Shown here: positions 2,508 through 25,291 of the stretch, piece by piece
Layout: every line of letters begins with the position of its first letter
Position numbering within the stretch: position 1 is the stretch's first letter
Assembly (NCBI GenBank): GCA_017434555.1
Contig: JAFRFB010000026.1
Coordinates: 1 to 33,003 of the forward strand
DNA length: 33,003 bases
Direction of reading: 5' to 3'
Source: Methanobrevibacter sp.
GTDB lineage: Archaea > Methanobacteriota > Methanobacteria > Methanobacteriales > Methanobacteriaceae
Position numbers and translations under genes: made by a program
The notes under the pieces: model-generated
Seen by the model: only the letters and a program-made list of their open reading frames with translations
What the model was told of the DNA's origin: nothing
Database searches by the model: none

Positions 2508-2537
2508 TTTGTGGATCAGTTTCCACAAAACTTTTTT
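2508..2537 (+). terminator. Second hairpin plus T-run between convergent genes
   Basis: Perfect eight-base arms (TTTGTGGA and TCCACAAA) enclose a six-base loop and are followed by TTTTTT at 2532-2537. The T-run reaches the stop codon of the minus-strand phosphopantetheinyl transferase gene, so the site separates the two convergent units. Confidence 0.6.
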
Positions 2538-5621: not shown

Positions 5622-7528
5622 ATGAATTCAAAGAAATGTTCGTTGATTGCTTTATCTGTATTTCTGATTTTGCTCGTATTTGTTTCATCAGCAAGCGCTG
5701 CTGATAGTGATAAAACAACAGAGTTATTATCAGCTGATGAATCAGTCAGCCTGTAAAATGATGATGTGCTCACATTAGATATTGTATCTGGTGACAATAA
5801 TGTTTTAGAAAATGCAAATGAAACTCAATTTCTGAATTTTGATGGTGCTGTGCCGGAAAGCTCAACTGGTGATGACGTTTTTTCCAAAGGCACAAATTCA
5901 CAACTAGGTGTATCCGCTTCTCCTAGTCCGGATAAGAAGAATTTAACGATTAACGCAACAGCTGATCCTATTTATGTTGATGATACTGCTATTGTTTTTG
6001 TCACCGGTTTGGAGAATGCTACTGGTAAGGTTTATGTTGATATCGGTTCCGTTGTTTATTTCGGCTATATCAATGAAGGTGTTGCCAGTGTTATTGTTTA
6101 TGGTGTAGTTGAAAATACTACTGCAAATGTAACTTATGACGGTGATGAAAATTATAATCCCGCTTCCACCAATGTTACAATTATTGTTTATCCTTTCCCT
6201 AAAATAGATACAAATATTTCTATTGTAGTTTCGGATGATTATGTAAGTGAAAGAAAAACCGTTAATATAAGATTTCCGGGTTCTTATGATATTGGGGGAA
6301 ATATTACAGTTATTTTAAACAATGAAAGTAGAACATTTGACATGAAAGATGCTGAAACTATTGCAATTATGGATTACTTCTATGTATTGGTTAGATATGC
6401 GAATTTAACGGTGGGCAATTATATTGTTGAAGCGTTTTATTATGGTGATGACCATTATCTTCCATCAAATGCAAGTGGTAAATTTTCAATATATCCTAAG
6501 GAAAACCTTACAATGAATATTAGTGCTTCTCCGGTTATAGAAGGTCAAAATGTTACTATTGATGTGGAATTAGTTAAAGATGCTATTGTTGCTAATGTTA
6601 CTGCCACTGTTGATGGTAAGAATTTCACTTTCAATGTTGTACGTTCTGATGTTAAAATCATCATCCCGGATTTGGCTGCCGGTAATTATACTGTTCCTGT
6701 ATCCTACTCAGGTAATTTTAAGTATAATCCTGTAAGCCAGGATGTAAACATTAGTGTTTTACCAAAACCGGATGTTAACATTGTAGCGGATAATGTAAGC
6801 AAATACTATGGCGGTTCTGAAAGATTTGTTGCAAACATATATGACTCAAATATGAATCCTATTGCAAATAAATCCGTAAATATTACCATTAACGGCGTTA
6901 CCTATACCAGAACTACCAATGAAAATGGTACTGCTAGTTTGGCTCTCAGATTAAACCCAGGACATATTATGTTACTACTCAGCTTGATGATGTTAGTGCA
7001 GACTCAACTGTAACCATATTGTCAACTATAGAAAGTGCAGATCTCACCAAATATTATAGAAACGAAACACAATTCACCGTTCAGGTATTTGGTACTGACG
7101 GTAAGGCTGTGGGTGCTGGTGAAAAAGTAACATTCAACGTTCACGGCATATTATACACACGTACAACCAACGAATCAGGCATTGCTAAATTGAACATTAA
7201 CCTTGAACCTGGCCAATACATTATCACAACAAGTTACAATAATTGCAATGTTTCAAATAACATTACTGTTTCACCTGTTTTAAACGCAAGTGACCTTTCA
7301 ATGAAATATATGGATGGATCTCAGTTTAAAGCTACTTTGCTTGACGGCCAGGGTAAACCTTGTGCAGGACAGAATATAACTTTCAATATCAATGGAGTAT
7401 TCTATGACAGGTTAACTGACAGTAACGGTGTGGCTAACTTGAACATCCGCTTAATGGTCGGTGAATATATTATTACTTCCAGTTACAATGGTTGTAATGT
7501 TGCAAATACAATAACTATTACTTCTTAG
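5622..7528 (+). pseudogene. Adhesin-like secreted Ig-repeat protein, broken by a stop codon and a frameshift
   Basis: The gene starts at ATG 5622 after a GGGGAG site, with a clear signal peptide (MNSKKCSLIALSVFLILLVF, then VSSASAAD). After 44 codons an in-frame TAA follows CTG, and the same frame then continues (NDDVLTLDIVSGD) to about 6960. There the reading frame shifts after LRLNPG; one missing base near 6960-6965 restores YYVTTQLDDVSADSTVTI and the rest to 7528. The repaired protein would be about 635 residues, made of Ig-like beta domains of 80-100 residues with recurring cores such as ITINGVTYTRTTNENGTA and LNIRLMVGEYIITSSY. The last three domains match those in the surface protein at 31.6-33.0 kb. 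The role in the family is cell-surface adhesion. Sequencing error is possible, but two independent lesions favour real decay. Confidence 0.8.
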
Positions 7529-7629: not shown

Positions 7630-7693
7630 AAGATTTATTTATTTTAATAATCATAATTTTAAATGATTGTATAATTTATATGATAGTGATATT
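7630..7693 (+). promoter_or_regulatory. Candidate NRPS promoter and ribosome site
   Basis: An AT-rich TATA-like element (GATTTATTTA, about 7632-7641) would give a start near 7660. AGTGAT (7685-7690) lies three bases before ATG 7694, the same spacing as the strong GGAGGCGAT site of the STAS gene. This favours ATG 7694 over TTG 7667. Confidence 0.35.
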
Positions 7694-10600
7694 ATGATTG
7701 ATAATAATAAGAATTTTGAAAAACACTTTTTAAACCAAATTATGGATTTTGATGAGGCAACATTACTTAGCCCAAACCTTGGAGGCAGTGAAACTCCAAA
7801 ATTAGCCAAAAATGAATTTGAATTAAAATTTGATGAATTAGATGATTTTTGCAGTGAAAACCAAATATCAAAAGATATTCTCTTTTTAGCATGTGTCAAT
7901 ATTGCATTGAACAAGTTTAATTTCTCAGATAAAAACTTAATATTTCACGAAAACAATATCCCTTTCGCATGCGTTTTTGAAAATAGGGATATTTCAATTA
8001 AAGACTATTTCACCAAAATTAAAGAAATTTATGACGATAATTTAAGATACATCAACTGTCCTGTCGAAGGAATAATCAAGGATTATGGATTAAAGCCTGA
8101 ATTTTACTATTCATTCAACAAGGATTTGGATGTTGATTCCTTAAAATTCAAATATTCAACATATATGGACATTTTAGAAAGTGATGAAGGATTCATTTTG
8201 TCCATGTACTATAACAATCAATTATATTCACAATCATACGTCACTCTATTTTTGGAAAGCATACAAACAATCATAAATCATTTTGTTAATGAAGATATCA
8301 CTAAATTAACTCTATCAGACATATCACTTATAGAAGAATATGTAAATCTCCAGTTCGATGAAGTTGAACTTCCGTTTTTACATAAACGCTTTGAAAAGGT
8401 AGTTAATGAAAAACCTGATGATATAGCTCTTATTGCAAGTGACGCTACATTTACTTATACAGAACTCAACCAAAAAGCAAACCGTATTGCAAACGCCCTT
8501 ATTAAAAAAGGAGTCAGTCCAAAAAGCAATATTCTGGTAATGCTTCCAAGATCAAGTGATTTAATCGCATCAATGGTAGGTATTTTCAAGGCAGGATGCG
8601 CTTTTGTTCCTATTGATTTGGAATATCCGAAAGAAAGGATTAACTATATTTTTGAAAACAGTCAGGCTGACTACATTATTTCAGATAAAAGTGAAGGAAA
8701 TACCATAGATATTAAGGAACTGCTCAAAGAAGATGACGTTGAAAATCCTGACGTTGAAATGTCTCCTGAAGACTTGGTTTACATGATTTATACTTCAGGT
8801 TCTACCGGAAACCCTAAAGGAGTAATGATTTCACATAAAAACATATGTAATGAAATCAACAACCCTAAAACCGCTTACAGCAGCATATTATGTATTACAA
8901 CAATTTCCTTTGACGTAGCTATGGAGGATATTTTAACCTCTCTTGGTAATGGAATCAAGTTAATATTTGCCGATGACAGCCAGATTAAGGACATTCCTAA
9001 ATTAATCCAGTTAATTAATGAAAACCAACCTGAAGTAATGGATTTAACTCCATCAAGACTGGCTTCATATCTCGATGTCAATGCCTTCTGTGATGCCATT
9101 TCCTGCGTGAAATGTATGTTTTTAGGAGGAGAAGCATTCTCCACAAAAGTATATGAAACATTCAGAAAATACTCTGATGCTGTTGTCTATAACAGTTATG
9201 GCCCTACAGAAACTACAATCACTTCCAATAACAAGGTCATTACAGACATTAACGATATAACTGTAGGTTATCCTTTACCAAATTATATAACTGACGTAAG
9301 GGATATTGACGGAAAACTCTTGCCTTTCGGTGTAATGGGTGAACTGTACATCGGTGGTGTCGGTGTAGGTAAAGGTTACTACAACATGCCTGAAAAAACC
9401 GAAGAAGTATTCCTATCCATTAACGACATTCCATTTTACAGAAGTGGGGACTATGCAATCTCAAGAGAAGACGGTGAAATTGAGATTAAAGGAAGAATCG
9501 ATAACCAGATTAAGTTAAGAGGTTTAAGGATAGAAATCGGTGAAATCGAATCAAACATCAGCAAATATCCGTCAATAAAACAGGCGGCTGTTGTTATCAA
9601 AGAAATCAACAATAACGATCATTTATGTGCATATTATACTGCAGATGATAAAATCGATAAAAATGACTTAAAAGAATTCTTAAAAGACAGATTAACCAAA
9701 TATATGGTTCCGACTGCATTCATGCAGCTTGATGAAATGCCAAAAACTCCAAACGGAAAAACCGATTTGAAAGCATTGCCTCAGCCTAAATTGGATTTGG
9801 AAAATGAGGCTGCAGAAACAGAACTTGAACAAAAGTTATTCGATATCGCTTCTGAGTTATCAAATACTGATGAATTCGGTGTAACTGACGATTTATATGC
9901 AATAGGATTTACTTCACTTCTTTTAATGAAATTCAATGCAATAATCTATGAGGACTTTGGAGTTAACCTCGACATTGTTGAACTCCTGAATAATCCTACA
10001 ATCAGAAACATTGCAACCAGCATTGGAAACAATGAAGAGTCCGCAATTGATTTAAACGTTCTAATTGAATCTTCAAAAGATATTGAGTATTATCCGTTAA
10101 CTTCCAATCAGCTGGGTGTTTATTATGGATGCGCTCAAAATCCGGATGAAGCACAGTACAACCTTCCGGCAATGATAAGATTTGACAAGGATATTGATGC
10201 TTTAAAATTAAAAGAAGCTATTATTAAAACAATCAATGCATATCCTTATCTTAAAACCAGAATTGTTACACATGACGGTCAGCTGATGCTTAAACGTAAC
10301 GATTCAATTGAAATAGATGAAATTCCAATCGTTGAAGTAGACCAAATAACTACAGAAGAAATCGAAAAGGAAAATGTAGTAAGGTTTGAACTTCAGGAAA
10401 ACCAGTTATTCAGAGCTAAAATATATAATACTTCAACTGAAACAGTCCTATTCTTTGACATGCACCACATTATCACTGACGGTGAATCTCTAGATAATTT
10501 ATTCAATAACATTGCTCTTGCATATGAAGGCAATGAAATCGAAAAAGAGGCAATTGACGGTTATGTAAATGTCATGATTGAAAAATTGGATGAATCCAGT

Positions 10601-13600
10601 GAAGAATTTATCGCTTCCGAGAAATATTTCCATGACCAATTAACCCAGGAAGTTGATTCAACCATATTGACTCCAAACCTCAATGGAAATGTGGAAGAAG
10701 GTAAATTAAAATCATTATACAAAGACATTAACGTTGATTTAATTAAAGAATTCTGCTCAGAGATGAGAATTTCTCCTAACGTGCTATTTATGGCAGGTAC
10801 TATTTTAACGTTAAACAAATACACATTCTCAGATAAGACATTAATAACAACAATCTTCAACGGCAGATCTAATCCTAATTACTTCAATACTCAGGCATTT
10901 TTAGTCAAAACTATCCCTATACTTTCAATTAACGAGGACAGAAATATTACTGTAAGGCAATTGTTAACTCAAATGGATGAAATCTGGAAGGATTCAATTA
11001 AACACAGTAATTATCCATACACTAAACTTGCTGAAGAGTTCCAGTTGAAACCTGAATTCATGTATACATATAACAATTTGGATTCAGAAAAAATCCAGAT
11101 TTCAGGCAAGACCTATGAAGTTTCATATCTTGAATCACTTGAAACCAACTATAAAATTACTTTAGATGTTAATGAAAGTGAAGACAACTTGCAGCTATTC
11201 ATTTCATATAATGATCAGCTGTACAGTGAAGACTACATCAAAACTTTCCTCAATTCTATTTTAAACACATTAGCTCAATTCATGGAAAATGACATTGAAA
11301 AATTATTGATTAATGAAATCGAATTGAACAGAGATTATGAAATCCCTGTTTTCACGCCTGTTGAAAATCCGTTCATCCACAAACGCTTTGAAAAACAGGC
11401 TCTTGAAAATGCCGAGGGTACAGCTATTGTTGCATGTGACGATACATTGACCTATGCTGAATTCAACGAAAAGGCAAACCGTATTGCAAATGCACTTATC
11501 AAAAAAGGAGTCACTCCTGGAAATAACGTGTTGGTAATGCTTCCAAGGACAACTGATTTGATTGCATCAATTATGGGTATTTTAAAGGCAGGTTGTGCAT
11601 TCATTCCTATTGATTTGGAATATCCAAAAGAACGTATCGATTATATCTATGAAAACAGTCAGGCAGACTATATTATTTCCGATACTGATGACGACAATTC
11701 ATTAAACATTAGTGATTTGCTTAAAGAAGAAGATACTGCCAATCCGGATGTTGAAATGTCCAAAGATGATACTGCATACATGATTTATACTTCAGGATCT
11801 ACCGGAAACCCTAAAGGTGTAATGATTTCACATGAAAACATATGTAACCAGGTTCAAAACCCTAAATCAACATATGAAAGCCTTTTATGTCTTGCAACAA
11901 TTTCATTCGACGTATCCATAGATGATATATTGACTTCACTTTCAAACGGATTGAAACTGATATTGGCAAGCGATACCCAAATCAAAAACATTCCTGAATT
12001 AATCAAATTAATCAATGATGAAAAGCCTGAAGTTTCTGAGGTAACTCCTTCAAGACTTGCATCATATCTGGAAGTGGATGATTTCTGTCGTGCAATTGAC
12101 TGTTTGAAATGTGTATTTATGGGTGGAGAACAGTTCTCCACCAAAGTATTTGAAACATTCAGAAAATACTCCGATGCAGTTGTCTACAACAGTTACGGTC
12201 CAACAGAAACAACAATCACTTCAAACAACAAGGAAGTTACTGACGTAAATGACATAACTGTAGGTCCTCCTTTATACAATTACGTTACTGATGTAAGGGA
12301 TATTGATGGAAAACTCTTGCCTTTAGGCGTAATGGGTGAACTCTACATCGGTGGTGTCAGTGTAGGTAAAGGTTACTACAACATGCCTGAAAAAACCGAA
12401 GAAGTCTTCTTATCCATTAACGACATTCCATATTACAGAAGCGGAGACTATGCTATTGCAAGAAGCAATGGCGAAATAGACATTAAAGGAAGAATCGATA
12501 ACCAGATTAAGCTTAGAGGATTAAGAATAGAAATCGGTGAGATTGAATCCAACATTACAAAATATCCTTCAATTAAACAGGCTGTCGTTGTAATTAAGGA
12601 AATCAACAATAACGACCATTTATGTGCTTATTATGTTGCTGATGAAAAAATCGAAACAGCAAGCCTCAAAGAATTCCTTAAAGACAAATTAACCAAATAC
12701 ATGGTTCCAACAGCTTATACGCAGCTTGACGAGATGCCACACACTCCAAACGGAAAAACAGATTTAAAGGCTCTTCCTGAACCTGAATTGGATTTGGATT
12801 ATGTAAAACCTGAAAATGAAACCGAGCAAAAACTCTTTGATATTGCATCTGATTTAATTAACACTGACAAATTCGGAACAACAGATGATTTGTACACAAT
12901 AGGGTTCACTTCACTCATACTGATGAAATTCAACTCACTCATTTATGAGGAAATGCAGGTTAACTTAGACATTTCAGTATTATTCAATAATCCTACAATC
13001 AAAAAGCTTGCAAATGAGGTTGCCGGAACTTCCGATGATGGCTCCGATTTATCCGAAGTAATTGAAATGGCTAAAGGCATGGATTATTTACCTTTAACCG
13101 AAAACCAATTGGGTGTATACTATGAATGTATACAAAGCCCTGGTGAAATCAGATACACATTACCTACAACCATAAGGTTTGACAGTAGTGTTGATGCGGA
13201 TAAATTAAAAGAATCTGTTATTAAAGCTATTGAAACTCACCCATATCTTAAAACAAGAATCATCATGGACAGTGAAGGTGAAATAAAACAGAAAAGAAAT
13301 GACGATGCTCCAATTGATGAAATCGAAATTGTTGAAGTTTCTACCATCAGTGATGATGAAATCATAGAAAATGACGTAAGGCCATTTTCATTTGGTGATG
13401 AGCAGCTATTCAGATTCAAAATCTATAAAACTCAGGAAGATATTGTGCTTTTCTTCGATATCCACCACACAATTACAGACGGTGTATCTCAAATCAGCTT
13501 ATTTGATGATATCGCAAGCATTTATGAAAACAGGGAAATTTCAGAAGAGATCGTTGACGGATATACATACAGCCTTTTAGAAAGCTATCTTGTGGATTCC

Positions 13601-16600
13601 GACAAATATCGGGAAGCCAAGAGATTCTTTGATGACAAACTCTCACAGGAAATTGAGTCAACTGTGCTGACACCTAACTTGAACGGTAATCTGGATGAAG
13701 GTAAACTGAAATCAGTCACTGAGATAATTGACCCTAAAAACATCAAGGAATTCTGTAATGAAAATTCATTAAGTCAAAATGCAGTGTTCCTCTCAGGTCT
13801 TGCATTAAGTCTTAATAAATACACATTCTCCGATAAGACATTAATAACTACAATCTTTAACGGAAGATCAAACCCGTATTATTTCAATACTCAAGGATTT
13901 TTAGTAAAAACAATCCCATTAGTGTTCAATAATGAAAACAGGCAAGTCTCCATTAAGGAATTCATTAATTACGTTGATGAAACCTGGAAAGATACAATGA
14001 ACAACAGTATCTATCCATATACTAAAATTGCACAGGAATATCAGTTGAAACCTGAATTCTTCTTCACCTATCAGGAATTTTTAGAATCTGAAGACATTGT
14101 AATCGACGGCAAGGTCTATGAAGAAAAAGAATTGGTTAATGATGATATTATAGCAACTGAATATAAGATTAACTTCGACATATTCGTTTTCGAAGACAAT
14201 ATTGAGCTTAACATAGAATATAATGATGAACTCTACAGTGAAGAATACATTAAACAGTTCCTTGACTCATTTAAACTTGTTCTAAATCAGTTCATGGAAA
14301 ATGACATCAAGGACTTGATGATTTGTGATGTTGAGCTTGAAACTACAAAAGAATTGCCTACATTCACACCTGTAGAAACTCCGTTCATCCACAAGCGTTT
14401 CGAAGCGCAGGTTAGTGAAAACCCTCAAAACATTGCTCTTGTTGCAACCGATGCAACACTTACCAATGAGGAGCTTAACAAGAAGGCCAACCGTATAGCA
14501 AATGCACTTATCAAAAAAGGAGTGCAGGCCAAAAGCAATATCCTGGCAATGCTTCCAAGAGACAGTAATTTAATAGCCACAATCATAGGTATTTTAAAGG
14601 CAGGATGCACATTCATCCCGATTGACTTGGAATATCCTAAAGAACGTATTGACTACATTTACAGAAACAGTCAGGCAGATCATATCATAACTGTTGACGG
14701 AAAAGCAGACAATGCTTTAAATATATATGAACTGCTTGAAGAAGAGAATACAACTAACCCTGATGTTGACATCACTCCTGATGATTTGGCTTACATGATT
14801 TACACTTCAGGTTCCACAGGAAATCCTAAAGGTGTAATGATTGGTCATAAAAATGCATGTAACCAGGCTGAAGGAAACCCTAAATGCGAATACGACAATC
14901 TATTAAGTATTGCAACAATTGCATTCGATACATCCTTGGAAGATATCTTAACCGGTATTACAAATGGAATTAAGATAATCTTTGCTAACGATTCAGAAAT
15001 CAAAAACATTGTGGATTTAATTGCACTCATTAAGGAGCACAAACCGGAAGTTATGGAATTCACTCCTTCAAGATTACTTTCCTATCTTGAAATTGATGAG
15101 TTCTGTGATGTAATCGGCTGTGCAAAATGTATTGTCATGGGTGGGGAACAGTTCTCAGCAAAAGCATTTGACGGCGTTAAAAAATACACTGATGCTCACG
15201 TATACAACAGTTACGGACCGACCGAAGCAACAATCGCTTCAAACTATAAGGAAATTACCGATCCAAATAACATTACAATCGGTAAGGCTCTTAAAAACTA
15301 CGTGACTGAAGTAAGGGATATTGACGGAAAACTCCTGCCTCAAGGCGTAATGGGTGAATTGTACATCGGTGGTGTCGGTGTAGGTAAAGGTTACTACAAC
15401 ATGCCTGAAAAAACCGAAGAGGTATATCTCTCCATTAATGATATTCCATACTACAAGAGTGGGGATTATGCAATAGAGCTTCCTGACGGAGACATTGACA
15501 TTAAAGGAAGAATCGATAACCAAATCAAACTTAGAGGATTGAGAATCGAAATCGGTGAGATTGAATCAAGCATCAACAAATATCCTAATGTTAAACAGGC
15601 AGTTGTTGTAATTAAGGAAATCAACAACAACGACCATTTATGTGCTTATTTCACGGCTGAAGAGGAAATCGATAAGGATTCACTAAAAGAATTCCTCAAA
15701 GAAAGATTAACCTACTACATGGTTCCGACCGTATTCATGCAATTGGATGAAATTCCACAATTGCCTAACGGTAAGACAGATATAAAACGTTTGCCTGAAC
15801 CTAAACTTAAACTTGAAAACGTAAAACCTGAAAATGAAACCGAACAAAAGCTCTTCGATATCGTTTCAGGACTTATTGAAAACGACGGATTCGGAACAAC
15901 CGATGATTTATATGCCATAGGTTACACTTCCCTGACGTTAATGAAGTTAAACACATTGATTTATAAGGAAATGGACGTTAATTTGGATATTTCAGTACTC
16001 TTCAACAGCCCAACAATCAAAAAGCTTGCAGAAGAGATTTTAAATAACAGCGATCAAAAATCAGAGCTTAACGAACTTATTGAAATGTCTGAAACTATAG
16101 AATACTTCCCATTGACCGAAAATCAGTTAGGTATCTATTATGAATGTATGCAAAGTCCTGGTGAAGTCAAATATACAATGCCGTCTGTCGCAAGATTTGG
16201 AAATGATGTTGATGCTCAAAAGTTAAAAGAAGCTATTATAAAGACTGTTGAAGCACACCCATACATCAAAACAAGAATCATAACCACTGACGACGGTTCA
16301 CTAAAACAGTTCAGAGATGATGATGCTGAAATCGATGAAATAGAAATTGTTGACATTCCAGCCATAAGTGACGATGAAATCGCAGCAAATGACGTAAAGG
16401 CATTTTCATTCGGTGATGAACAGCTGTTCAGATTCAAAATCTATAAGACTCCTGAAGAGACGGTTATGTTTTCAGATTTCCACCACATAATTACAGATGG
16501 TGAATCACAGGGTCTTTTATTTGAAGATATTGCAAAAGCATATCAAAATGAAGCTATTGAAGAAGAAACAGTTAACGGATATGTATTCAGCCTTATTGAA

Positions 16601-19600
16601 AGCAGTCTTGAAAACAGTGAGAAATACGAAGCAGCCAAGAAATTCTTCGATGACAAACTTTCACAGGAAATCGAATCCACAGTTCTAACTCCAAACCTTA
16701 ACGGAAACCCTGATGACGGAAAAGTCGAATTAATCAGCGACTCATTTGACTCATCAGACATTAATGAATTCTGTAAGGTCAATTCAGTCAGTCCTAATTC
16801 ACTATTCATGTCCGCATTCATCCTGGCATTGAATAAATACACATTCAGTGATGAAACGTTAATTACAACAATATTCAATGGAAGAACTGATCCTAATTAC
16901 TACAACACTCAGGGATTCTTGGTAAAAACACTTCCTTTAGTATTGAAAAGCGAAAACAGACAGGAAAGCATCAGGAATTTCATCAAAGATGTGGACCAAA
17001 TGTGGATTGACACAATAAACAACAGCATTTATCCATATACAAAGATTTCAGAAGAATATCAACTTAAACCTGAAGTCTTCTATTCATTCCAGGAAGGTGA
17101 CGATTCAGAAAGCGTTGTCATAAACGATAAGGAATATGAATCCTATGAACTGAATGCAAGTGTGGCTACTGAATATAAAATAGATTTATCAGTATTCAAA
17201 AAAGATTCCAGTGTCGATTTGGACATGCTGTATAATAATGAGCTCTATTCAAAGGATTATGTCGAATTGTTCATGAATTCATTCAAGGTAACATTGAATC
17301 AAATCATTGAAAACGACATTGATGAATTCAGAATCTGTGACGTTGAGCTGGAAACCACAAAAGGATTACCTACATTCACTCCTGTTGAAAATCCATTCAT
17401 CCACAAGAGATTTGAAAAGCATGTTGAGGAAAATCCTGAGGGCATTGCTCTTGTTACAAGCTCAGATTCACTGACTTTCGATGAACTTAACAGAAAGGCA
17501 AACCGCATAGCCAACGGACTTATCAAAAGAGGAGTAAGACCAAAAAGCAATGTCCTGATAATGCTTCCGAGGACAAGCGATTTGATTGCTACAATTTTAG
17601 GTATTTTAAAAGCCGGATGTGCATTGATTCCTGTTGATATGGAATATCCTAAAGAAAGAATCGATTACATCTATGAAAACAGTCAGGCAGATTACATTAT
17701 TGCCAGTGAAACTACAGGAAATTCCCTTAACGTTAAGGAATTGCTTGAAGAGGAAAATGACATAAATCCTGACGTTGCAATTACCAAAGACAACCTGTCC
17801 TACATGATTTACACTTCAGGTTCTACCGGAAACCCTAAAGGTGTAATGATTTCCCATGAAAACGCATGTAACCAGGTTGAAGGAAATCCTAAATGCGAAT
17901 ATGACAATCTATTAAGTATTGCAACAATTGCATTCGACACATCACTGGAAGATATCTTAACAGGTCTTACCAATGGTATTAAGATAATCTTTGCAAATGA
18001 TTCAGAGATTAAAAACATTGTAGACCTGATTGAATTGATTAGAGAGTATCAGCCACAGGTAATGGAATTCACTCCTTCAAGGTTACTGTCCTATCTGGAA
18101 GTTGATGACTTCTGTGATGTAATAAAATGTGCCAAATGTATCGTTATGGGTGGGGAACAGTTCTCAGCCAAAGCGTTCAATGGCGTGAAACGTTATGCTG
18201 ACGCTGTTGTTTATAACAGTTACGGACCGACCGAAGCAACAATCGCATCAAACTATAAGGCAATCACCGATCCGGAAAACATCACTGTCGGTAAGGCACT
18301 TAAAAACTATGTAACAGAAGTAAGGGATATTGACGGAAAACTTCTCCCTCAAGGTGTAATGGGTGAACTGTACATCGGTGGTGTCGGTGTCGGTAAAGGA
18401 TACTACAACATGGAGGAAAAGACCCAAGAGGTCTATCTAACCATTAATGACATTCCTTATTACAGAAGTGGGGATTATGCAATAGAGCTTCCTGACGGTG
18501 AAATAGACATTAAGGGAAGAATCGATAACCAGATTAAACTTAGAGGTTTAAGAATAGAAATTGGTGAAATCGAATCAAACATTTCCAGATTCCCTGCAAT
18601 TACACGTAACATTGTTGTTATTAAGGAAATCAACGGTACCGAACACTTATGCGCCTACTTCACTGCTGATTCAGAAATAGACATCAAGCTATTGAAGAGA
18701 TATCTGAACAGTAAATTAACTAAATACATGGTTCCTACAGTATTCATACAGATTGATGAAATGCCTCAAACTCCAAATGGAAAAACTGATTTAAAAGCTC
18801 TTCCAGAGCCTTCATTGAATTTAAATCATGTTGAAGCAGAAACCGAAACTGAAAAGTTAATATTCAAAATAGTCTCTTCATTGACTGATGTTGAAGACTT
18901 CGGAGTAACTGACGATTTATACGCATTAGGTTTCACCTCTTTGACTTTAATGAAATTGAATTCACTGATTTACAATGAAACGGATGTCAATATTGAAATA
19001 ACTGATTTGTTCAACAGTCCAACTGTACAAAGCCTTGCAGATAAGATTGACAACAACATTGACACTCAGGTCGATTTGGATGAAGTTACAAAGACTGCTG
19101 AAAGCATGGAATACTTCCCATTGACTACCAATCAGTTAGGTATTTACTATGAATGTGCTCAAAGTGATGAAATAAAATACACTATGCCTTCAGCAATAAG
19201 GTTTGACAGCAATATTGATCCTGAAAAACTTAGGGCAGCTATTATTGAAACCATTGAAGCACACCCTTATCTTAAAACAAGAATTATCACTACTCCTGAA
19301 GGAGAATTGAGACAGAAAAGATGTGATGATGCTGAAATCGATGAGATTGAAATTGTTGAAATCGATTCAATCACAGATAGGGAAATAATGGACAGGGACA
19401 TTAAATACATTCCATTGGATGACAATCAGCTGTTCAGATTCAAAATATATAAAACTTCAATGGAAACAGTTCTTTTCCTTGATTTCCACCATATCATTAC
19501 AGACGGTGTTTCACAGGACCTTCTCTTTGAAGACATAATCAACGCCTACGAAGGAAAAGAATTGAATTCAGAAATCGTTGACGGATTTGTCTACAGCCTT

Positions 19601-22600
19601 ATCGAGCAGGAACTAAGCGACAATGAAGTCTCCAAAGCTTACTATCAAAATAAGTTTGCACAAGGTTTCGAATCCACAGTACTGACTCCAAACCTCAATG
19701 GAAATCCTGATGAGGCTAAAATCAAACTCATTGAAGATACGATGGACTCAACATTTGTAAGGCTTTTCTGTAAGGACCATTCAATAAGTCCAAACGTATT
19801 ATTCATGTCTGCAACATTTTTAGCACTCAACAAGTTCACCTTCTCTGACAAGGCATTGATAACAACCATTTTCAACGGAAGGTCAAACTCAAATTACTTT
19901 GACACTCAGGGTATGCTTGTTAAAACCCTTCCTCTCATGGTAAGTGGTGAAAACAGAGAAATGATGATTGAAGATTTCATTAAAGTTGTGGATAAAAGCT
20001 GGAAAGATTCATTAGTCCACAGCAATTACTCCTACACTACACTTTCCGAGGAATATCAGTTGAAACCTGAATTCTTCTACGCATATCACGGGGCATTCGA
20101 AGCTGACAATGTTGAACTTGAAGGCAAGACTTATGAAATGATTGACCTTGACGGTACCGTTGCAACAGACTATAAGATAAATATGGATGTATTCGATGAC
20201 GGCGAGTCAATAAGCCTTTACATTGAGTATAATGACCAAATCTATTCCGAAGATTATGTCACTAAATTCCTCAATGCCGTCAAACATATTCTCTTCCAGT
20301 TCTTCATTAATGACATGGACAAATTGAGAATCAGCGACATTGAACTTGCATCCAAATTCGAATTGGTTGAATTTGAAGAGGTCGTTAATCCGTTCCTCCA
20401 CAAACGTTTCGAAGCACAGGTCGAGAAAAAGGCTGATGAAATCGCTCTTGTTGCAGAAGAGAAATTAACATATAAAGAGCTTAACGAAAAGGCAAACCGT
20501 ATTGCAAACGCACTTATCAAAAAGGGTGTTAATCCGAAAAGCAATATTTTGATAATGCTTCCTCGTAACAGTGACCTGATTGCTTCAATAATCGGTGTAT
20601 TAAAAGCAGGTTGTGCATTCATACCACTCGATTTAAAGTTCCCTAAAGAAAGAATTGAATACATCTATGATAACAGTCAGGCAGATTACATAATAAATGT
20701 AGATGGCAGCACTATTAATTCCATTTCCATCAATGAATTGCTTGAAGAGACGGATGTCACAAATCCTGGTGTTGAAATTTCCAAGGATGACCTTTCATAT
20801 ATGATTTACACTTCAGGTTCTACTGGAAATCCTAAAGGTGTAATGATTTCCCATGAAAATGCATGTAACCAGGTTGAAGGAAATCCAAAGGCAGAATACA
20901 GTAATTTATTAAGTATTGCAACAATTGCATTCGATACATCCTTAGAGGATATTTTAACCGGTATTACAAACGGTATTAAGATAATATTTGCTAATGATGA
21001 TGAAATAAAAAGCATTGTTGAGTTAATAAGACTTATTAAACGTGAAGAGCCTGAGGTAATGGAATTCACTCCATCAAGATTACTCTCATATCTTGAATTT
21101 GAAGAGTTCTGTGATGTAATCGGATGTGCAAAATGTATTGTCATGGGTGGAGAGCAGTTCTCAGCAAAAGCATTTGACGGTGTTAAAAAATACTGTGATG
21201 CTCATGTATACAACAGTTACGGACCGACCGAAGCAACAATTGCGTCAAACTATAAGGAAATAACTGATCCTGAAAACATTACTATCGGTAAGGCTTTAAG
21301 AAATTATATAACTGAAGTAAGGGATATTGACGGAAAACTCCTCCCACAGGGCGTAATGGGTGAACTGTACATCGGTGGTGTTGGTGTAGGTAAAGGTTAC
21401 TACAACATGGAAGACAAAACCAGGGAAGTTTACCTTACAATCGACGATATTCCGTACTACAAGAGTGGGGATTATGCAATAGAGCTTCCTGACGGTGACA
21501 TTGACATCAAGGGAAGAATCGATAACCAGATTAAGCTAAGAGGTTTAAGAATTGAAATCGGTGAAATCGAATCCAACATTTCCAATTTCCCTAACATAAA
21601 ACAGAACGTTGTTGTAATTAAGGAAATACGTAACAACGAGCATTTATGCGCATACTTCACTGCAGAAGAGGAAATCAACAAGGATGAGCTTAAGGAATAC
21701 TTATCAGAAAGACTTACACAGTATATGGTTCCTACGGTCTTCATGCAGATAGATGAGATGCCGCAGACTCCAAACGGAAAAACTGATTTGAAAGCACTTC
21801 CTGAACCTAAACTCGAGTTCAATTACGTTGCTCCTGAAACCAAACTGGAACAGGCAATATGTGCTATATACTCATCAATATTGGATGTTGAAATTGTCGG
21901 TGCAGAGGATAACTTCTTTGAAATAGGTGGTACTTCACTTATCGCATCAAAACTTATCATTGAGCTTTTAAAACGGGATTATGACGTAAAATATGATGAT
22001 ATATTCAAAAATCAGACTCCAAGAAAATTGGCCAATTTCCTTTCTGGTGAAGGTATTTCAGATGACCTGGACGTTGACATCATTGAAAACTATGATTACA
22101 CTAAAATTGACAGTCTTCTTGAAGAAAACACCTTTGAAAACTTTGCAATGGGTGAAAATACGGCTCTTGGCAATGTCTTGCTTACTGGTGTTACCGGATT
22201 TTTAGGAATTCACATACTGTATGAATACATCAAGAATGAAACCGGAACGCTTTACTGTATGCTTAGAAAAGGAAGCTTTGACTCATGTGAAGAACGTCTA
22301 GCTGATTTGATGAATTATTACTTCGATGAGGACTTCACTGACCTTATAGGATCACGCATTATCCTTTCAGAAGGTGACATTACAAACGGTGATGACTTCA
22401 AGAAATTTGAAGACTATCCTATTGATACATTAATAAACAGTGCAGCTATCGTAAAACATTACACTCACGATGATTACATCTTCAGGGTTAATGTTGACGG
22501 TGTTGTTAACGGACTTGAATTTGCAGAGGCAAATAACATCAAATACGTTCAGATATCAACAACCAGTGTCATTGACGAGTATCTTGAGGATACTGATGTT

Positions 22601-23266
22601 TCTGATGTCGTATGTGATGAAAGAACACTGTATTGGGGACAGGATTTATCCAACAAATACCTGAACAGTAAGTTCCTCGCAGAAAGAATGGTGCTTGAAA
22701 AGGCTGTAAACGGTTTGGATGTAAAGATTGTCAGGGTAGGTAACCTTATGGCACGTTACTCAGACGGAGTCTTCCAAAAAAACTTCGATACCAATGCATT
22801 CCTCAACAACATCAAGGCCATTAAGAACTTGAAGGCGATAAATCCAAGTTTGGCCGGCGAAATTGTTGAAATAAGTCCTATCGATTACGTTGCAAAAGCA
22901 ACTCTTCTCCTGTCAACGGCACCGAAAGAATCAACTATTTTCCACTGTGAAAATGAGAAACTGATTCCTACTCAAAACATCATTGATGCATTGAATACAT
23001 TCGGATTTGACATTAGAAATGTTTCCTCAGAGGAATTCAAGGAAATCTATGAGCAGAACATGGATGAAAACATTCAGGGTATAATCACTGCCGATTTGAC
23101 ATTGGATGATTTGGACTTTGAAGACGACGGTGATGACGGCAACATTGTAAAAATGGATCAGACATTGGATATCCTTGATTCACTTGGATTTGAATGGCCG
23201 GTTATAGATGAAAATTATCTTAAACGCTTTATTGAACATTTAAATGAGGTAAATTATTTTGATTAA
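7694..23266 (+). CDS. Five-module nonribosomal peptide synthetase with terminal thioester reductase
   Basis: This 5190-residue enzyme assembles a peptide on phosphopantetheine arms in the cytoplasm. Order: a half condensation domain (1-220, without HHxxxDG), A1, T1, then four C-A-T modules, then a reductase. The C active sites HHxxTDG lie at 924, 1924, 2930 and 3932. Each A domain has YTSGSTGNPKG and YGPTE motifs. Carrier serines are at about 741, 1740, 2746, 3749 and 4748. The reductase has TGVTGFLG (4831-4838) for NADPH and YLNSK (Y4989, K4993). There is no epimerase or thioesterase, so a linear L-peptide released as an aldehyde or alcohol is expected. By eye the A-domain codes are DVEDFGSIT, DVDEFGSIT and DTEEVGSIA three times. 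The two acidic pocket residues suggest basic substrates such as Orn or Lys; that is inference. T1-T4 have GFTSL/GYTSL, whereas T5 has the usual GGTSL. MatE follows after 11 nt. Confidence 0.97.
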   Translation: MIDNNKNFEKHFLNQIMDFDEATLLSPNLGGSETPKLAKNEFELKFDELDDFCSENQISKDILFLACVNIALNKFNFSDKNLIFHENNIPFACVFENRDISIKDYFTKIKEIYDDNLRYINCPVEGIIKDYGLKPEFYYSFNKDLDVDSLKFKYSTYMDILESDEGFILSMYYNNQLYSQSYVTLFLESIQTIINHFVNEDITKLTLSDISLIEEYVNLQFDEVELPFLHKRFEKVVNEKPDDIALIASDATFTYTELNQKANRIANALIKKGVSPKSNILVMLPRSSDLIASMVGIFKAGCAFVPIDLEYPKERINYIFENSQADYIISDKSEGNTIDIKELLKEDDVENPDVEMSPEDLVYMIYTSGSTGNPKGVMISHKNICNEINNPKTAYSSILCITTISFDVAMEDILTSLGNGIKLIFADDSQIKDIPKLIQLINENQPEVMDLTPSRLASYLDVNAFCDAISCVKCMFLGGEAFSTKVYETFRKYSDAVVYNSYGPTETTITSNNKVITDINDITVGYPLPNYITDVRDIDGKLLPFGVMGELYIGGVGVGKGYYNMPEKTEEVFLSINDIPFYRSGDYAISREDGEIEIKGRIDNQIKLRGLRIEIGEIESNISKYPSIKQAAVVIKEINNNDHLCAYYTADDKIDKNDLKEFLKDRLTKYMVPTAFMQLDEMPKTPNGKTDLKALPQPKLDLENEAAETELEQKLFDIASELSNTDEFGVTDDLYAIGFTSLLLMKFNAIIYEDFGVNLDIVELLNNPTIRNIATSIGNNEESAIDLNVLIESSKDIEYYPLTSNQLGVYYGCAQNPDEAQYNLPAMIRFDKDIDALKLKEAIIKTINAYPYLKTRIVTHDGQLMLKRNDSIEIDEIPIVEVDQITTEEIEKENVVRFELQENQLFRAKIYNTSTETVLFFDMHHIITDGESLDNLFNNIALAYEGNEIEKEAIDGYVNVMIEKLDESSEEFIASEKYFHDQLTQEVDSTILTPNLNGNVEEGKLKSLYKDINVDLIKEFCSEMRISPNVLFMAGTILTLNKYTFSDKTLITTIFNGRSNPNYFNTQAFLVKTIPILSINEDRNITVRQLLTQMDEIWKDSIKHSNYPYTKLAEEFQLKPEFMYTYNNLDSEKIQISGKTYEVSYLESLETNYKITLDVNESEDNLQLFISYNDQLYSEDYIKTFLNSILNTLAQFMENDIEKLLINEIELNRDYEIPVFTPVENPFIHKRFEKQALENAEGTAIVACDDTLTYAEFNEKANRIANALIKKGVTPGNNVLVMLPRTTDLIASIMGILKAGCAFIPIDLEYPKERIDYIYENSQADYIISDTDDDNSLNISDLLKEEDTANPDVEMSKDDTAYMIYTSGSTGNPKGVMISHENICNQVQNPKSTYESLLCLATISFDVSIDDILTSLSNGLKLILASDTQIKNIPELIKLINDEKPEVSEVTPSRLASYLEVDDFCRAIDCLKCVFMGGEQFSTKVFETFRKYSDAVVYNSYGPTETTITSNNKEVTDVNDITVGPPLYNYVTDVRDIDGKLLPLGVMGELYIGGVSVGKGYYNMPEKTEEVFLSINDIPYYRSGDYAIARSNGEIDIKGRIDNQIKLRGLRIEIGEIESNITKYPSIKQAVVVIKEINNNDHLCAYYVADEKIETASLKEFLKDKLTKYMVPTAYTQLDEMPHTPNGKTDLKALPEPELDLDYVKPENETEQKLFDIASDLINTDKFGTTDDLYTIGFTSLILMKFNSLIYEEMQVNLDISVLFNNPTIKKLANEVAGTSDDGSDLSEVIEMAKGMDYLPLTENQLGVYYECIQSPGEIRYTLPTTIRFDSSVDADKLKESVIKAIETHPYLKTRIIMDSEGEIKQKRNDDAPIDEIEIVEVSTISDDEIIENDVRPFSFGDEQLFRFKIYKTQEDIVLFFDIHHTITDGVSQISLFDDIASIYENREISEEIVDGYTYSLLESYLVDSDKYREAKRFFDDKLSQEIESTVLTPNLNGNLDEGKLKSVTEIIDPKNIKEFCNENSLSQNAVFLSGLALSLNKYTFSDKTLITTIFNGRSNPYYFNTQGFLVKTIPLVFNNENRQVSIKEFINYVDETWKDTMNNSIYPYTKIAQEYQLKPEFFFTYQEFLESEDIVIDGKVYEEKELVNDDIIATEYKINFDIFVFEDNIELNIEYNDELYSEEYIKQFLDSFKLVLNQFMENDIKDLMICDVELETTKELPTFTPVETPFIHKRFEAQVSENPQNIALVATDATLTNEELNKKANRIANALIKKGVQAKSNILAMLPRDSNLIATIIGILKAGCTFIPIDLEYPKERIDYIYRNSQADHIITVDGKADNALNIYELLEEENTTNPDVDITPDDLAYMIYTSGSTGNPKGVMIGHKNACNQAEGNPKCEYDNLLSIATIAFDTSLEDILTGITNGIKIIFANDSEIKNIVDLIALIKEHKPEVMEFTPSRLLSYLEIDEFCDVIGCAKCIVMGGEQFSAKAFDGVKKYTDAHVYNSYGPTEATIASNYKEITDPNNITIGKALKNYVTEVRDIDGKLLPQGVMGELYIGGVGVGKGYYNMPEKTEEVYLSINDIPYYKSGDYAIELPDGDIDIKGRIDNQIKLRGLRIEIGEIESSINKYPNVKQAVVVIKEINNNDHLCAYFTAEEEIDKDSLKEFLKERLTYYMVPTVFMQLDEIPQLPNGKTDIKRLPEPKLKLENVKPENETEQKLFDIVSGLIENDGFGTTDDLYAIGYTSLTLMKLNTLIYKEMDVNLDISVLFNSPTIKKLAEEILNNSDQKSELNELIEMSETIEYFPLTENQLGIYYECMQSPGEVKYTMPSVARFGNDVDAQKLKEAIIKTVEAHPYIKTRIITTDDGSLKQFRDDDAEIDEIEIVDIPAISDDEIAANDVKAFSFGDEQLFRFKIYKTPEETVMFSDFHHIITDGESQGLLFEDIAKAYQNEAIEEETVNGYVFSLIESSLENSEKYEAAKKFFDDKLSQEIESTVLTPNLNGNPDDGKVELISDSFDSSDINEFCKVNSVSPNSLFMSAFILALNKYTFSDETLITTIFNGRTDPNYYNTQGFLVKTLPLVLKSENRQESIRNFIKDVDQMWIDTINNSIYPYTKISEEYQLKPEVFYSFQEGDDSESVVINDKEYESYELNASVATEYKIDLSVFKKDSSVDLDMLYNNELYSKDYVELFMNSFKVTLNQIIENDIDEFRICDVELETTKGLPTFTPVENPFIHKRFEKHVEENPEGIALVTSSDSLTFDELNRKANRIANGLIKRGVRPKSNVLIMLPRTSDLIATILGILKAGCALIPVDMEYPKERIDYIYENSQADYIIASETTGNSLNVKELLEEENDINPDVAITKDNLSYMIYTSGSTGNPKGVMISHENACNQVEGNPKCEYDNLLSIATIAFDTSLEDILTGLTNGIKIIFANDSEIKNIVDLIELIREYQPQVMEFTPSRLLSYLEVDDFCDVIKCAKCIVMGGEQFSAKAFNGVKRYADAVVYNSYGPTEATIASNYKAITDPENITVGKALKNYVTEVRDIDGKLLPQGVMGELYIGGVGVGKGYYNMEEKTQEVYLTINDIPYYRSGDYAIELPDGEIDIKGRIDNQIKLRGLRIEIGEIESNISRFPAITRNIVVIKEINGTEHLCAYFTADSEIDIKLLKRYLNSKLTKYMVPTVFIQIDEMPQTPNGKTDLKALPEPSLNLNHVEAETETEKLIFKIVSSLTDVEDFGVTDDLYALGFTSLTLMKLNSLIYNETDVNIEITDLFNSPTVQSLADKIDNNIDTQVDLDEVTKTAESMEYFPLTTNQLGIYYECAQSDEIKYTMPSAIRFDSNIDPEKLRAAIIETIEAHPYLKTRIITTPEGELRQKRCDDAEIDEIEIVEIDSITDREIMDRDIKYIPLDDNQLFRFKIYKTSMETVLFLDFHHIITDGVSQDLLFEDIINAYEGKELNSEIVDGFVYSLIEQELSDNEVSKAYYQNKFAQGFESTVLTPNLNGNPDEAKIKLIEDTMDSTFVRLFCKDHSISPNVLFMSATFLALNKFTFSDKALITTIFNGRSNSNYFDTQGMLVKTLPLMVSGENREMMIEDFIKVVDKSWKDSLVHSNYSYTTLSEEYQLKPEFFYAYHGAFEADNVELEGKTYEMIDLDGTVATDYKINMDVFDDGESISLYIEYNDQIYSEDYVTKFLNAVKHILFQFFINDMDKLRISDIELASKFELVEFEEVVNPFLHKRFEAQVEKKADEIALVAEEKLTYKELNEKANRIANALIKKGVNPKSNILIMLPRNSDLIASIIGVLKAGCAFIPLDLKFPKERIEYIYDNSQADYIINVDGSTINSISINELLEETDVTNPGVEISKDDLSYMIYTSGSTGNPKGVMISHENACNQVEGNPKAEYSNLLSIATIAFDTSLEDILTGITNGIKIIFANDDEIKSIVELIRLIKREEPEVMEFTPSRLLSYLEFEEFCDVIGCAKCIVMGGEQFSAKAFDGVKKYCDAHVYNSYGPTEATIASNYKEITDPENITIGKALRNYITEVRDIDGKLLPQGVMGELYIGGVGVGKGYYNMEDKTREVYLTIDDIPYYKSGDYAIELPDGDIDIKGRIDNQIKLRGLRIEIGEIESNISNFPNIKQNVVVIKEIRNNEHLCAYFTAEEEINKDELKEYLSERLTQYMVPTVFMQIDEMPQTPNGKTDLKALPEPKLEFNYVAPETKLEQAICAIYSSILDVEIVGAEDNFFEIGGTSLIASKLIIELLKRDYDVKYDDIFKNQTPRKLANFLSGEGISDDLDVDIIENYDYTKIDSLLEENTFENFAMGENTALGNVLLTGVTGFLGIHILYEYIKNETGTLYCMLRKGSFDSCEERLADLMNYYFDEDFTDLIGSRIILSEGDITNGDDFKKFEDYPIDTLINSAAIVKHYTHDDYIFRVNVDGVVNGLEFAEANNIKYVQISTTSVIDEYLEDTDVSDVVCDERTLYWGQDLSNKYLNSKFLAERMVLEKAVNGLDVKIVRVGNLMARYSDGVFQKNFDTNAFLNNIKAIKNLKAINPSLAGEIVEISPIDYVAKATLLLSTAPKESTIFHCENEKLIPTQNIIDALNTFGFDIRNVSSEEFKEIYEQNMDENIQGIITADLTLDDLDFEDDGDDGNIVKMDQTLDILDSLGFEWPVIDENYLKRFIEHLNEVNYFD
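14880..21500 (+). repeat. Near-identical A-domain blocks in modules 3, 4 and 5
   Basis: The adenylation segments near 14880-15500, 17880-18500 and 20875-21500 share long runs of identical DNA, for example around ATTAAGTATTGCAACAATTG and GGTGTCGGTGTAGGTAAAGG. Their substrate-pocket residues are the same. The five YTSGSTG motifs are spaced very evenly at about 3.0 kb. Modules 1 and 2 are related but differ in the pocket region. This shows recent duplication or gene conversion within the gene. Confidence 0.75.
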
Positions 23267-23277
23267 AGGGTGAATAT

Positions 23278-24960
23278 ATGAATTTTAAAATTGCAGACAG
23301 TAAATTTAAGGAACTTTTATTGCCGACACTGCTTATTGTCATGGCTTTAAACGTAAGCGCTGTTGTCGATTCATTTTTCGTCGGCGCTTACATAGGCAAG
23401 AATGCGGTTGCAGCATTGGAAGTTTTAGAGCCTATGATTTTATTGATAACTGTTGTGGAATGGCTTTTCGGACTTGGTGGTCAAATTTTAGCATTGAATA
23501 AAAAATCAGAATTTGATATTGAAGGAAGTAACCGTTACTTCACGGCATCAATTGCATCTTCTTTGGTTGTTTCATGTATACTTGCTTTTGTTTGTTTATT
23601 TTTCATGGACCCTTTAAGTAGTCTTTTAGGTGCTTCCCCAACTATAAAACCTCTTGTAATGGATTATTCACATGGATTGTATGGATGTTTCATCGTATCT
23701 ACTATTGCAGGGGTATTGGCCCAATATATTCGTGTGGATGGTCAGCCGAACTTTGCATCAGTGGTAATTATTGTAGCTAACTTAGTCAATGTATTTTTGG
23801 ACTTTGTATTTTTGGATTTGATGGGTTTAGGCATGGCTTATGCATCCCTTGCAACATTCATTGGGTATAGCGTAGGTATTATTGTATGTATAAAATATTT
23901 CCGTGATTCAAGAAGAACATTCAGATTTATCAAATCTGCACTTAAAATAAAAACCTGGGTTAAAACTACCTGGGAAATGACCAAAGTAGGGTTCCCTGGT
24001 GCAAGTATCGGATTTTTCGATTTGGTTTTCGTTTATGTATTGAATATTTTCCTTGTATCAACTTTAGGAGACACTGGATTAACTACATATATGGTATGTA
24101 TGGACGCATTGGTAATTGCAAGTATTATTGATATTGGAATTGCAGAAACGCTTACGTCTATTGTCCCAATTTATTATACAAAGCACGATTATGTTAATTT
24201 AAATCATTTGATTAGGACTTCGCTTATAATAACTGTAATTTTTGCAACGCTGTTTGTTGCTTTCCTGTGGATATGGCCTCAAGGATTTTTAGCCCTTTAC
24301 GGCTTTAATAATTCTGATATTGCAGGATTTATAATAAATGCACTTAGATTGTACTCAATATTCTTTGTCGCTTCAATACTTCCTAACATGCTGATATTTT
24401 ATTATGAAGCTATTGAAAGATCAACGATTTCAACAATATTTTCAATCATCTTCACTCTTGTGATGCCGTTGTCTTGCATATACCTCTTGTATCAGCTTAT
24501 AGGGTCTAATGGAATTTGGATAGCATTTACAGTTGCATCAATAATCACATTTGCTATCATTTTCGTAACTGTCATGGCAATTCAGAAAAGAGATAAAAAA
24601 TACAGCGGATTGTTCTTCATTGAAAAGGATTTGATTCCTAAAACCAGAAACTATGTACTTACAGACAATGATGTGGCTGCAAGAGAAGAATCATTACAGC
24701 ATCTTAAAAGTTTAAACGCTTCAGATGAGTTCTGTGATAATGTCAATAAGATGTTTGATGCAATCTTTGACACGAATGAACACGGTACCTATGTAGAGAT
24801 GCTGGTTATAGATTACGATGACAATGTCCACGTTGACGTCAAGTACGATGGAGAAAAAGAAAACCTTGAAATCATCAAAAAGAAATTCCCTGAAAATCTT
24901 TTCAAATATGCTGAGGTTTTAGGTTTTAACAATATTGAATATGTGATGGATAAAAGCTAA
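23278..24960 (+). CDS. MatE-family efflux transporter with an extra C-terminal domain
   Basis: The 560-residue protein has about twelve hydrophobic segments in residues 1-436, arranged like MATE multidrug and metabolite exporters, which use an ion gradient. It has a ribosome site GGGTGA and starts 11 nt after the NRPS stop, so the two are cotranscribed and the peptide is the likely cargo. The unusual part is a soluble tail of about 124 residues (437-560) that ordinary MATE proteins of about 450 residues lack. Its core (VNKMFDAIF, then YVEMLVIDYDDNVHVDVKYDG) parallels the helix-strand-strand order around the N-box and G1 box of the RsbW-like protein at 5069-5443, but the ATP-binding residues are not kept. 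A degenerate HATPase-like docking domain is my inference. Confidence 0.93.
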   Translation: MNFKIADSKFKELLLPTLLIVMALNVSAVVDSFFVGAYIGKNAVAALEVLEPMILLITVVEWLFGLGGQILALNKKSEFDIEGSNRYFTASIASSLVVSCILAFVCLFFMDPLSSLLGASPTIKPLVMDYSHGLYGCFIVSTIAGVLAQYIRVDGQPNFASVVIIVANLVNVFLDFVFLDLMGLGMAYASLATFIGYSVGIIVCIKYFRDSRRTFRFIKSALKIKTWVKTTWEMTKVGFPGASIGFFDLVFVYVLNIFLVSTLGDTGLTTYMVCMDALVIASIIDIGIAETLTSIVPIYYTKHDYVNLNHLIRTSLIITVIFATLFVAFLWIWPQGFLALYGFNNSDIAGFIINALRLYSIFFVASILPNMLIFYYEAIERSTISTIFSIIFTLVMPLSCIYLLYQLIGSNGIWIAFTVASIITFAIIFVTVMAIQKRDKKYSGLFFIEKDLIPKTRNYVLTDNDVAAREESLQHLKSLNASDEFCDNVNKMFDAIFDTNEHGTYVEMLVIDYDDNVHVDVKYDGEKENLEIIKKKFPENLFKYAEVLGFNNIEYVMDKS

Positions 24961-24992
24961 ATATTAATTATTTAGCTTTAAAATTCTTTTTT
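24956..24992 (+). terminator. Terminator after the NRPS-MatE operon
   Basis: Perfect eight-base arms GCTAAATA and TATTTAGC enclose TTAAT, and a T-run follows up to 24992. The first arm contains the MatE stop codon. The convergent STAS gene ends at the same place. Confidence 0.7.
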
Positions 24993-25291
24993 TACTGAAT
25001 ATCTAGGATATTATCTAATCCAGATACTTTAATAATGTCTTTTATCATATCTGGGGAATTAATGATTTTGAATGGTATTGATTGAGGTTGTAATTTCTTT
25101 TGTGTCATGATTAGGACTCTCAATCCTGCACTTGAAATGTATTCCAGTTTTTCAAAGTCAAGAATCAGTGAATCGAATTTTCCCATTTCATCGTTGATTT
25201 CATTTTCAAAATCCGGAGCAGTAACTGTATCAATCTGATTGTCTACTTTGATAGTTAATTCCTTATCATTATAAATTTTTTCAACATTCAT
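24992..25291 (-). CDS. RsbV-like STAS anti-sigma-factor antagonist
   Basis: The 99-residue protein is a lone STAS domain. The phosphorylation loop is visible as YISSAGLRVL (about residues 50-59), with the serine that RsbW-type kinases modify and RsbU-type phosphatases restore. In bacteria the unphosphorylated form binds the kinase and frees its target. The kinase and phosphatase partners are encoded across the NRPS at 3171-5443. It lies convergent to MatE and is monocistronic, with its own TATA box and one of the best ribosome sites in the window (GGAGGCGAT, three bases before the ATG). It completes the partner switch; the output in an archaeon is unknown. Confidence 0.93.
   Translation of the reverse strand: MNVEKIYNDKELTIKVDNQIDTVTAPDFENEINDEMGKFDSLILDFEKLEYISSAGLRVLIMTQKKLQPQSIPFKIINSPDMIKDIIKVSGLDNILDIQ

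Follow-up and report, generated by a model that had tools for sequence, protein, structure and literature searches.

The window, by which we mean the whole 33,003-nucleotide stretch of DNA analyzed here, comes from a Methanobrevibacter genome of 3.15 Mb. It carries a nonribosomal peptide synthetase (NRPS) gene followed by a gene for a MatE-type exporter, flanked on both sides by genes of the partner-switching families. The features relevant to this study are as follows.

2537–3178, minus strand: 4′-phosphopantetheinyl transferase (Pfam ACPS, 52.7 bits)
3171–5069, minus strand: membrane SpoIIE-type (PP2C) phosphatase (Pfam SpoIIE, 158.6 bits; hydropathy)
5069–5443, minus strand: free RsbW-like kinase (Pfam HATPase_c_2, 50.3 bits; alignment)
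7667–23266, plus strand: giant NRPS of 5199 aa (ORF), whose last 380 aa form the reductase-type end
23278–24960, plus strand: the whole MatE ORF, 560 aa, with its stop codon at 24958–24960
23278–24585, plus strand: MatE (MATE family) exporter core, residues 1–436 (Pfam MatE, 69 bits, two stretches)
24586–24957, plus strand: C-terminal RsbW/SpoIIAB-like tail, a probable pseudo-ATPase, residues 437–560 (profiles, AlphaFold2, Foldseek, VIA-align)
24739–24777, plus strand: relic of the N-box helix, residues 488–500 (alignment, residue tally)
24838–24855, plus strand: relic of the G1 box, residues 521–526 (alignment, residue tally)
24992–25291, minus strand: STAS protein of the anti-sigma antagonist type (Pfam STAS, 50.8 bits; NCBIfam ant_ant_sig over the cut-off)

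The MatE ORF begins 11 bp after the end of the NRPS, and the STAS gene converges on it from the other side with 31 bp between them. The phosphopantetheinyl transferase, the SpoIIE-type phosphatase and the RsbW-like kinase lie at the far side of the NRPS. The C-terminal end of the NRPS is presumably of the reductase type, a name that follows in part the Methanobrevibacter ruminantium M1 paper (PMC2812497). With the first 1100 aa and the last 380 aa of the NRPS as queries, similar ORFs were recovered immediately upstream of the MatE relatives. Two adjoining ORFs with bacterial Ig-like, adhesin-like repeats (5766–7528), possibly a single interrupted gene, separate the regulatory genes from the NRPS.

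The three partner-switching genes of the window retain the motifs of their families. In the alignment, the free RsbW-like protein has its N-box, G1 box and GGLG lid all intact, and a PDB sequence search with it gave weak matches (best E 0.073). The STAS protein keeps ISSAGL, and the serine (phospho-site) motif is kept in 36 of 36 cassette STAS proteins. In the phosphatase, a full phosphatase domain follows some ten TM-like segments. Since the ATP motifs of RsbW, the serine motif of STAS and the phosphatase domain are all kept, the usual RsbW/STAS/SpoIIE phosphorylation cycle could, as far as motifs tell, work in this organism.

The core of the MatE protein belongs to the MATE exporter family, with two MatE Pfam repeats over the cut-off and a predicted MATE fold. 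In the AlphaFold2 model of the full-length protein (pLDDT 88.7, pTM 0.87), the PDB matches were all MATE transporters down to rank 39. They included ClbM (PDB 4z3n), which we take to be a MATE exporter linked to a synthetase cluster; as there, a MATE fold stands here beside a peptide synthetase, but the matched ClbM chain, at 431 residues, is too short for a tail of the window type. The window's genome also encodes short MatE paralogues (ORFs of 421–467 aa) with no room for a tail, beside tailed ones of 559–605 aa. Two tailed matches in this genome (G000:C86:50–454 and G000:C126:6249–6653) have equal scores and both lie in 605 aa ORFs, reflecting either recent duplication or assembly redundancy, and in a 541-aa MatE (L241; G000:C54:15729–17351) a distant tail stops early.

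The initial annotation had described residues 437–560 of the MatE protein as an extra soluble domain, aligned by eye with the N-box/G1 region of the nearby RsbW-like kinase. Pfam placed its MatE domain in the core and nothing over the cut-off in the tail, where the gathering score of HATPase_c_2 was not reached; the tail alone gave a chance-level match to XPA_C (E 0.044), which we rejected. Relatives of the protein were more informative. In the paralogues L003 and L005, a tail is found at the same place with recognizable N-box and G1 motifs. The 138 genomes of the family contained matches to the window tail in 31 cases and to the L005 tail in 73. MatE-fused domains exceeded the Pfam HATPase_c_2 cut-off in six genomes (G127, G012, G126, G130, G010 and G102), in ORFs of 589–598 aa, as did that of L220, and the tail of L160 matched the SpoIIAB model. 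Used alone as a query at E≤1e-5, this intact L160 tail retrieved tails fused within ORFs some 580 aa long as well as free RsbW ORFs some 130 aa long. Its matches occurred in 69 of the 151 genomes of the phylum, none of them outside the window's family, which accounts for 138 of the 151. A PDB sequence match of an intact tail to PCNA (E 2.6e-4) was dismissed as spurious, as it consisted of three repeats of one weak 7.8-bit stretch.

We then compared the tails as profiles, after excluding two truncated proteins of 111 from the class counts. Degenerate tails (n=38) matched intact-type tails (n=60; a class defined by a loose motif) with 97.2% probability, or 96.3% without the membrane-proximal linker, as against at most 1.6% in column-permuted controls (n=30). 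The resemblance thus exceeds chance. Intact tails in turn matched free RsbW proteins (n=20) with 97.9% probability, and 97.6% when the linker was removed. Set directly against free RsbW, the degenerate tails gave no signal (0.1–0.3%), and the negative control of tail against STAS profiles gave at most 1.0%. Because the direct comparison is so low, the alignment by eye could not be demonstrated without the intermediates; through them, each of its three segments found its counterpart in the intact relatives, VNKMFDAIF aligning with AIEEMLVNI (the N-box helix), YVEMLVIDYD with TIDVIVKNN (a strand) and NVHVDVKYDG with NILVSIKDTG (a strand plus G1). By way of the intact tails, profile comparisons therefore confirm the sequence descent of the window tail from the RsbW/SpoIIAB (HATPase_c_2) fold.

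The fold had been open to disproof by structure prediction and a fold search of residues 437–560, which could have pointed to something unrelated to GHKL ATPases. The search returned anti-sigma kinases at the top. The AlphaFold2 model of the tail (129 residues, 23 alignment rows, pLDDT 82.9, pTM 0.79) has the elements strand, helix, helix, strand, strand, helix, strand, strand in this order. With Foldseek, the first 17 PDB matches were SpoIIAB, UsfX or RsbW, with E values from 1.4e-4 upwards and TM of about 0.5. VIA-align likewise had such proteins as its first ten entries, with Z from 11.5 down to 8.9 (the best at 2.8 Å over 112 residues), and the next entry had a Z of 7.6. As 21 of the 23 alignment rows came from intact-type relatives, the model is not independent of the homology argument. 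These results support a predicted GHKL fold of the anti-sigma kinase type for the window tail.

The claim that the ATP-binding residues are gone was also borne out. In the N-box, K491 takes the place of the base (catalytic) Glu and A495 that of the Mg-binding Asn; in the G1 box, Y523 replaces the Asp while G525 is kept, and the following loop and the ATP lid are deleted. All three of these residues, Glu, Asn and Asp, are absent in 18 of 18 members of the window's class. The sister degenerate class (n=20) keeps the Glu in one member, the Asn in none and the Asp in 18, and the full Glu/Asn/Asp/Gly set is kept in 47 of the 60 intact-type tails. A GGxG lid was found in none of 109 tails, as compared with 19 of the 20 free RsbW proteins, the twentieth being cut off. 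With K491, A495, Y523 and no lid, the window tail does not have the makeup of an active RsbW-type serine kinase, and its residues support its being a pseudo-ATPase. In a tree of the MatE core only, the two degenerate classes group together in a single clade with a support of 1.0; partial motif losses are seen in separate clades, for instance in seven proteins around L003.

Despite the lost site, the sequence of the tail has been kept. Within the window's class, the tail is 76.0% identical as against 71.2% for the core, is at least as conserved as the core in 131 of 153 pairs, and has a dN/dS of 0.113 as against 0.185 (37 pairs). In the sister class, the tail is less conserved than the core (60.9% versus 66.8% identity) and the dN/dS values are similar (0.153 and 0.165, respectively; 82 pairs). 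Judged from these ratios, the window-type tail is under purifying selection. A search with the core only (E≤1e-50) gave 129 matches in 64 of the 138 genomes; the tail was present in all of the 41 closest (at least 44% identity). Eight of the 129 core matches lay in ORFs shorter than 540 aa, some of which are located at a contig end or have a fragmented tail, and broken tailed copies were seen in G000:C82, G019:C1 and G058:C37. Tails lacking a MatE core occur at L115:3188–3580 and L116:9758–10051, in ORFs of 131 and 98 aa, respectively, which are fragments or stand-alone pseudo-kinases.

To describe the gene neighborhoods, we used 104 proteins (18 of the window's class, 20 of the sister degenerate class, 55 of the intact type and 11 of a last class), with loci ending at contig ends or at about 10 kb. 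MatE directly follows an NRPS with a reductase-type end in 16/18, 15/20, 39/55 and 0/11 cases, respectively. A STAS gene lies within about 10 kb of MatE in 3/18 and 6/20 degenerate loci and in 26/55 intact-type loci. Complete cassettes of NRPS, MatE::HATPase, STAS, RsbW and SpoIIE genes are present in L148, L157, L159, L163 and L164, and in many other loci RsbW and STAS diverge from the NRPS that precedes MatE. The tail's family is thereby linked to STAS, RsbW and SpoIIE genes. One locus (L114; G088:C16, 6348–9764) has a tandem pair of degenerate-tail MatE genes behind one NRPS. A scan of public contigs gave 33 loci, all from Methanobrevibacter, with patterns drawn from the region next to the membrane and the first part of the tail, which do not reach distant fusions.

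As the NRPS genes are long, the far side of the NRPS was also inspected for the degenerate loci. Both sides were in view in 13 of them; G000:C29 was excluded because its contig leaves 586 bases beside MatE, and G089:C3, G123, G070, G055 and G091 were not counted because an NRPS start was not visible there together with both flanks. Partner-switching genes adjoin the NRPS–MatE pair in five of the 13 (the window, G043, G057, G100 and G125:C48), and in one more (G040) the only such genes nearby belong to an intact cassette next door. The remaining seven loci (two in G113, and those of G019, G038:C2, G045, G075:C42 and G083:C2) had no STAS, RsbW or SpoIIE gene nearby. A tail far from any STAS/RsbW genes, which the initial annotation had named as a ground for refutation, is thus seen in these seven loci and speaks against a purely local circuit; genome-wide, however, a STAS hit was present in 31/31 genomes carrying the window tail type versus 61/107 others (Fisher 5.6e-7, ignoring phylogeny). 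For genomes with any tail, the figures were 72/76 versus 20/62 (1.3e-15, likewise ignoring phylogeny), and both counts include STAS domains of long ORFs. If the tail does bind STAS, then STAS must act in trans at the loci without it, and its presence in all 31 genomes is consistent with such action.

In a second context (L160, L171, L223 and L224; L218–L221), no NRPS was seen. The first four loci have STAS and MatE::HATPase genes, with RsbW and SpoIIE in all except L223, and GH3-type enzymes were found in L160 and L224, the two that were scanned. In L218–L221, MatE::HATPase, STAS and a protein of 712–720 aa stand in a row with SpoIIE genes alongside. The latter protein, in the two loci scanned (L218:7734–9869 and L220:7304–9463), is a GH3-family acyl-amide synthetase fused to HATPase_c_2 (57 bits) with the kinase motifs intact; L219 and L221 contain ORFs of the same length. 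The strongest hint that STAS may act on both the enzyme and the exporter is that each carries a kinase-type domain and that their genes flank the one for STAS. Another fusion, of a SpoIIE phosphatase to HATPase_c_2, adjoins phosphopantetheinyl transferases in L245:3578–5944 and L246:3352–5559. When plasmid records, a set apart from bacterial chromosomes, were searched for a bacterial MatE fusion, 80 matched the L160 MatE, one of them over 80% of the query; among the two of the 80 matches inspected for fusion, none was found in this longest one, an Ilyobacter plasmid MATE of about 454 aa (325907–327271) that is followed by a separate hypothetical gene.

On balance, we slightly favor a model in which the dead RsbW-type tail serves as a STAS docking site that switches the exporter of the adjacent NRPS product. 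In it, MatE would export what the neighboring NRPS makes and would offer unphosphorylated STAS a docking site in its cytosolic tail. The free RsbW kinase would phosphorylate STAS, and the membrane SpoIIE phosphatase, on receiving a signal, would remove the phosphate. Dephosphorylated STAS would then bind the tail and alter the activity of the exporter, presumably by either opening or closing it. A kinase-fold domain without the ability to phosphorylate but with a kept sequence is what a STAS receptor would be expected to look like, and STAS gating of the exporter is plausible. The gene arrangement supports a partner-switching module whose output may be small-molecule synthesis and export rather than a sigma factor, a kind of protein that is not known from archaea.

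The main rival to STAS docking is that the tail docks the synthetase, NRPS or GH3, so that the product is handed straight to the pump; the ATP site would then have been lost because this calls for no more than a binding surface. The degenerate-tail MatE gene starts directly after a reductase-ended NRPS in 31 of 38 loci, a tighter link than that with STAS, and tails occur in both the NRPS and the GH3 contexts. However, RsbW/SpoIIAB-type domains have STAS proteins and sigma factors as their known partners, and the Foldseek matches of the tail include structures of complexes of this type. In addition, the cassettes that hold intact-type tails also contain STAS, RsbW and SpoIIE, and some tails do not directly follow any NRPS, as in all 11 members of the last class. 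We consider synthetase docking unlikely. We give rather less credence to a tail that regulates the pump through a nucleotide, another ligand or dimerization, without STAS. Free RsbW-like proteins dimerize, and the ancestral tail probably bound a nucleotide, given that most intact-type tails keep the Glu/Asn/Asp/Gly set; against this, all members of the window's class have lost the three polar residues and the GGxG lid is missing from every tail.

Were the tail a functionless vestige in the course of being lost, one could understand the motif losses in separate clades and the few broken copies, yet its low dN/dS, its conservation above that of the transporter core and its retention in all of the 41 close relatives disfavor this reading, which we regard as very improbable. 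Descent from a kinase family would be in line with an active kinase or ATPase, an explanation made barely credible by the window protein's deleted lid and its lack of all three polar residues (Glu, Asn and Asp) of the ATP site. Returning to the preferred STAS-docking model, we note that loss of the ATP site together with strong conservation of the tail suggests that a sigma-factor switch may have been rewired in archaea to control a pump.

The module resembles bacterial SpoIIAB/SpoIIAA/SpoIIE and RsbW/RsbV/RsbU in comprising the same three families, whose free members retain their motifs, and the window tail is predicted to fold like the kinase partner of those modules. It differs from them in that its proposed output is not a sigma factor, that a second kinase-type domain is fused to the exporter, that sister operons also fuse such a domain to a GH3 enzyme, and that the fused domain of the window is dead by its residues. 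We class it as a variant form of the partner switch and do not count it among the active kinases. SulP/SLC26 transporters carry a fused STAS domain; there, as here, a transporter bears one half of a partner-switching pair, the STAS half in SulP/SLC26 and the kinase half, on an unrelated transporter fold, in the present case. In a literature search that covered a minority of subscription journals, no title or abstract opening described a MatE–HATPase fusion.

In M. ruminantium M1, NRPS genes lie near MatE, serine phosphatase, STAS and RsbW-type genes, for which export and regulation, the latter of NRPS expression, were proposed (PMC2812497); the portion of that account available to us does not mention the MatE domain described here. 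The regulation and products of such NRPSs were called unclear in the accessible part of another Methanobrevibacter genome paper (PMC5467289). Methanomicrobiales carry SpoIIAA/SpoIIAB/SpoIIE-like genes, and according to the portion of the account at hand, Archaea have no known bona fide sigma factor, and the sequence does not reveal what SpoII-type proteins target (PMC2686161). That portion describes no fused target, while the fused tails found here point to candidate ones, namely the exporter and the GH3 synthetase, which makes the question of the targets testable with purified domains.

Extending the argument to the family, we tentatively suggest, with somewhat less than even confidence, that in Methanobacteriaceae partner switching may have been rewired to small-molecule metabolism. 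RsbW-type domains on MatE (mostly pseudo-kinases) and on GH3 enzymes (with kinase motifs intact) would compete for one STAS protein, and a peptide or acyl-amide would have its synthesis and its export switched together, post-translationally, by the membrane SpoIIE sensor. If true, this would reveal the targets of archaeal anti-sigma proteins, and transport would be controlled by a kinase-fold domain turned into a pure receptor. The finding is also relevant to the uncharacterized peptides of rumen methanogens.
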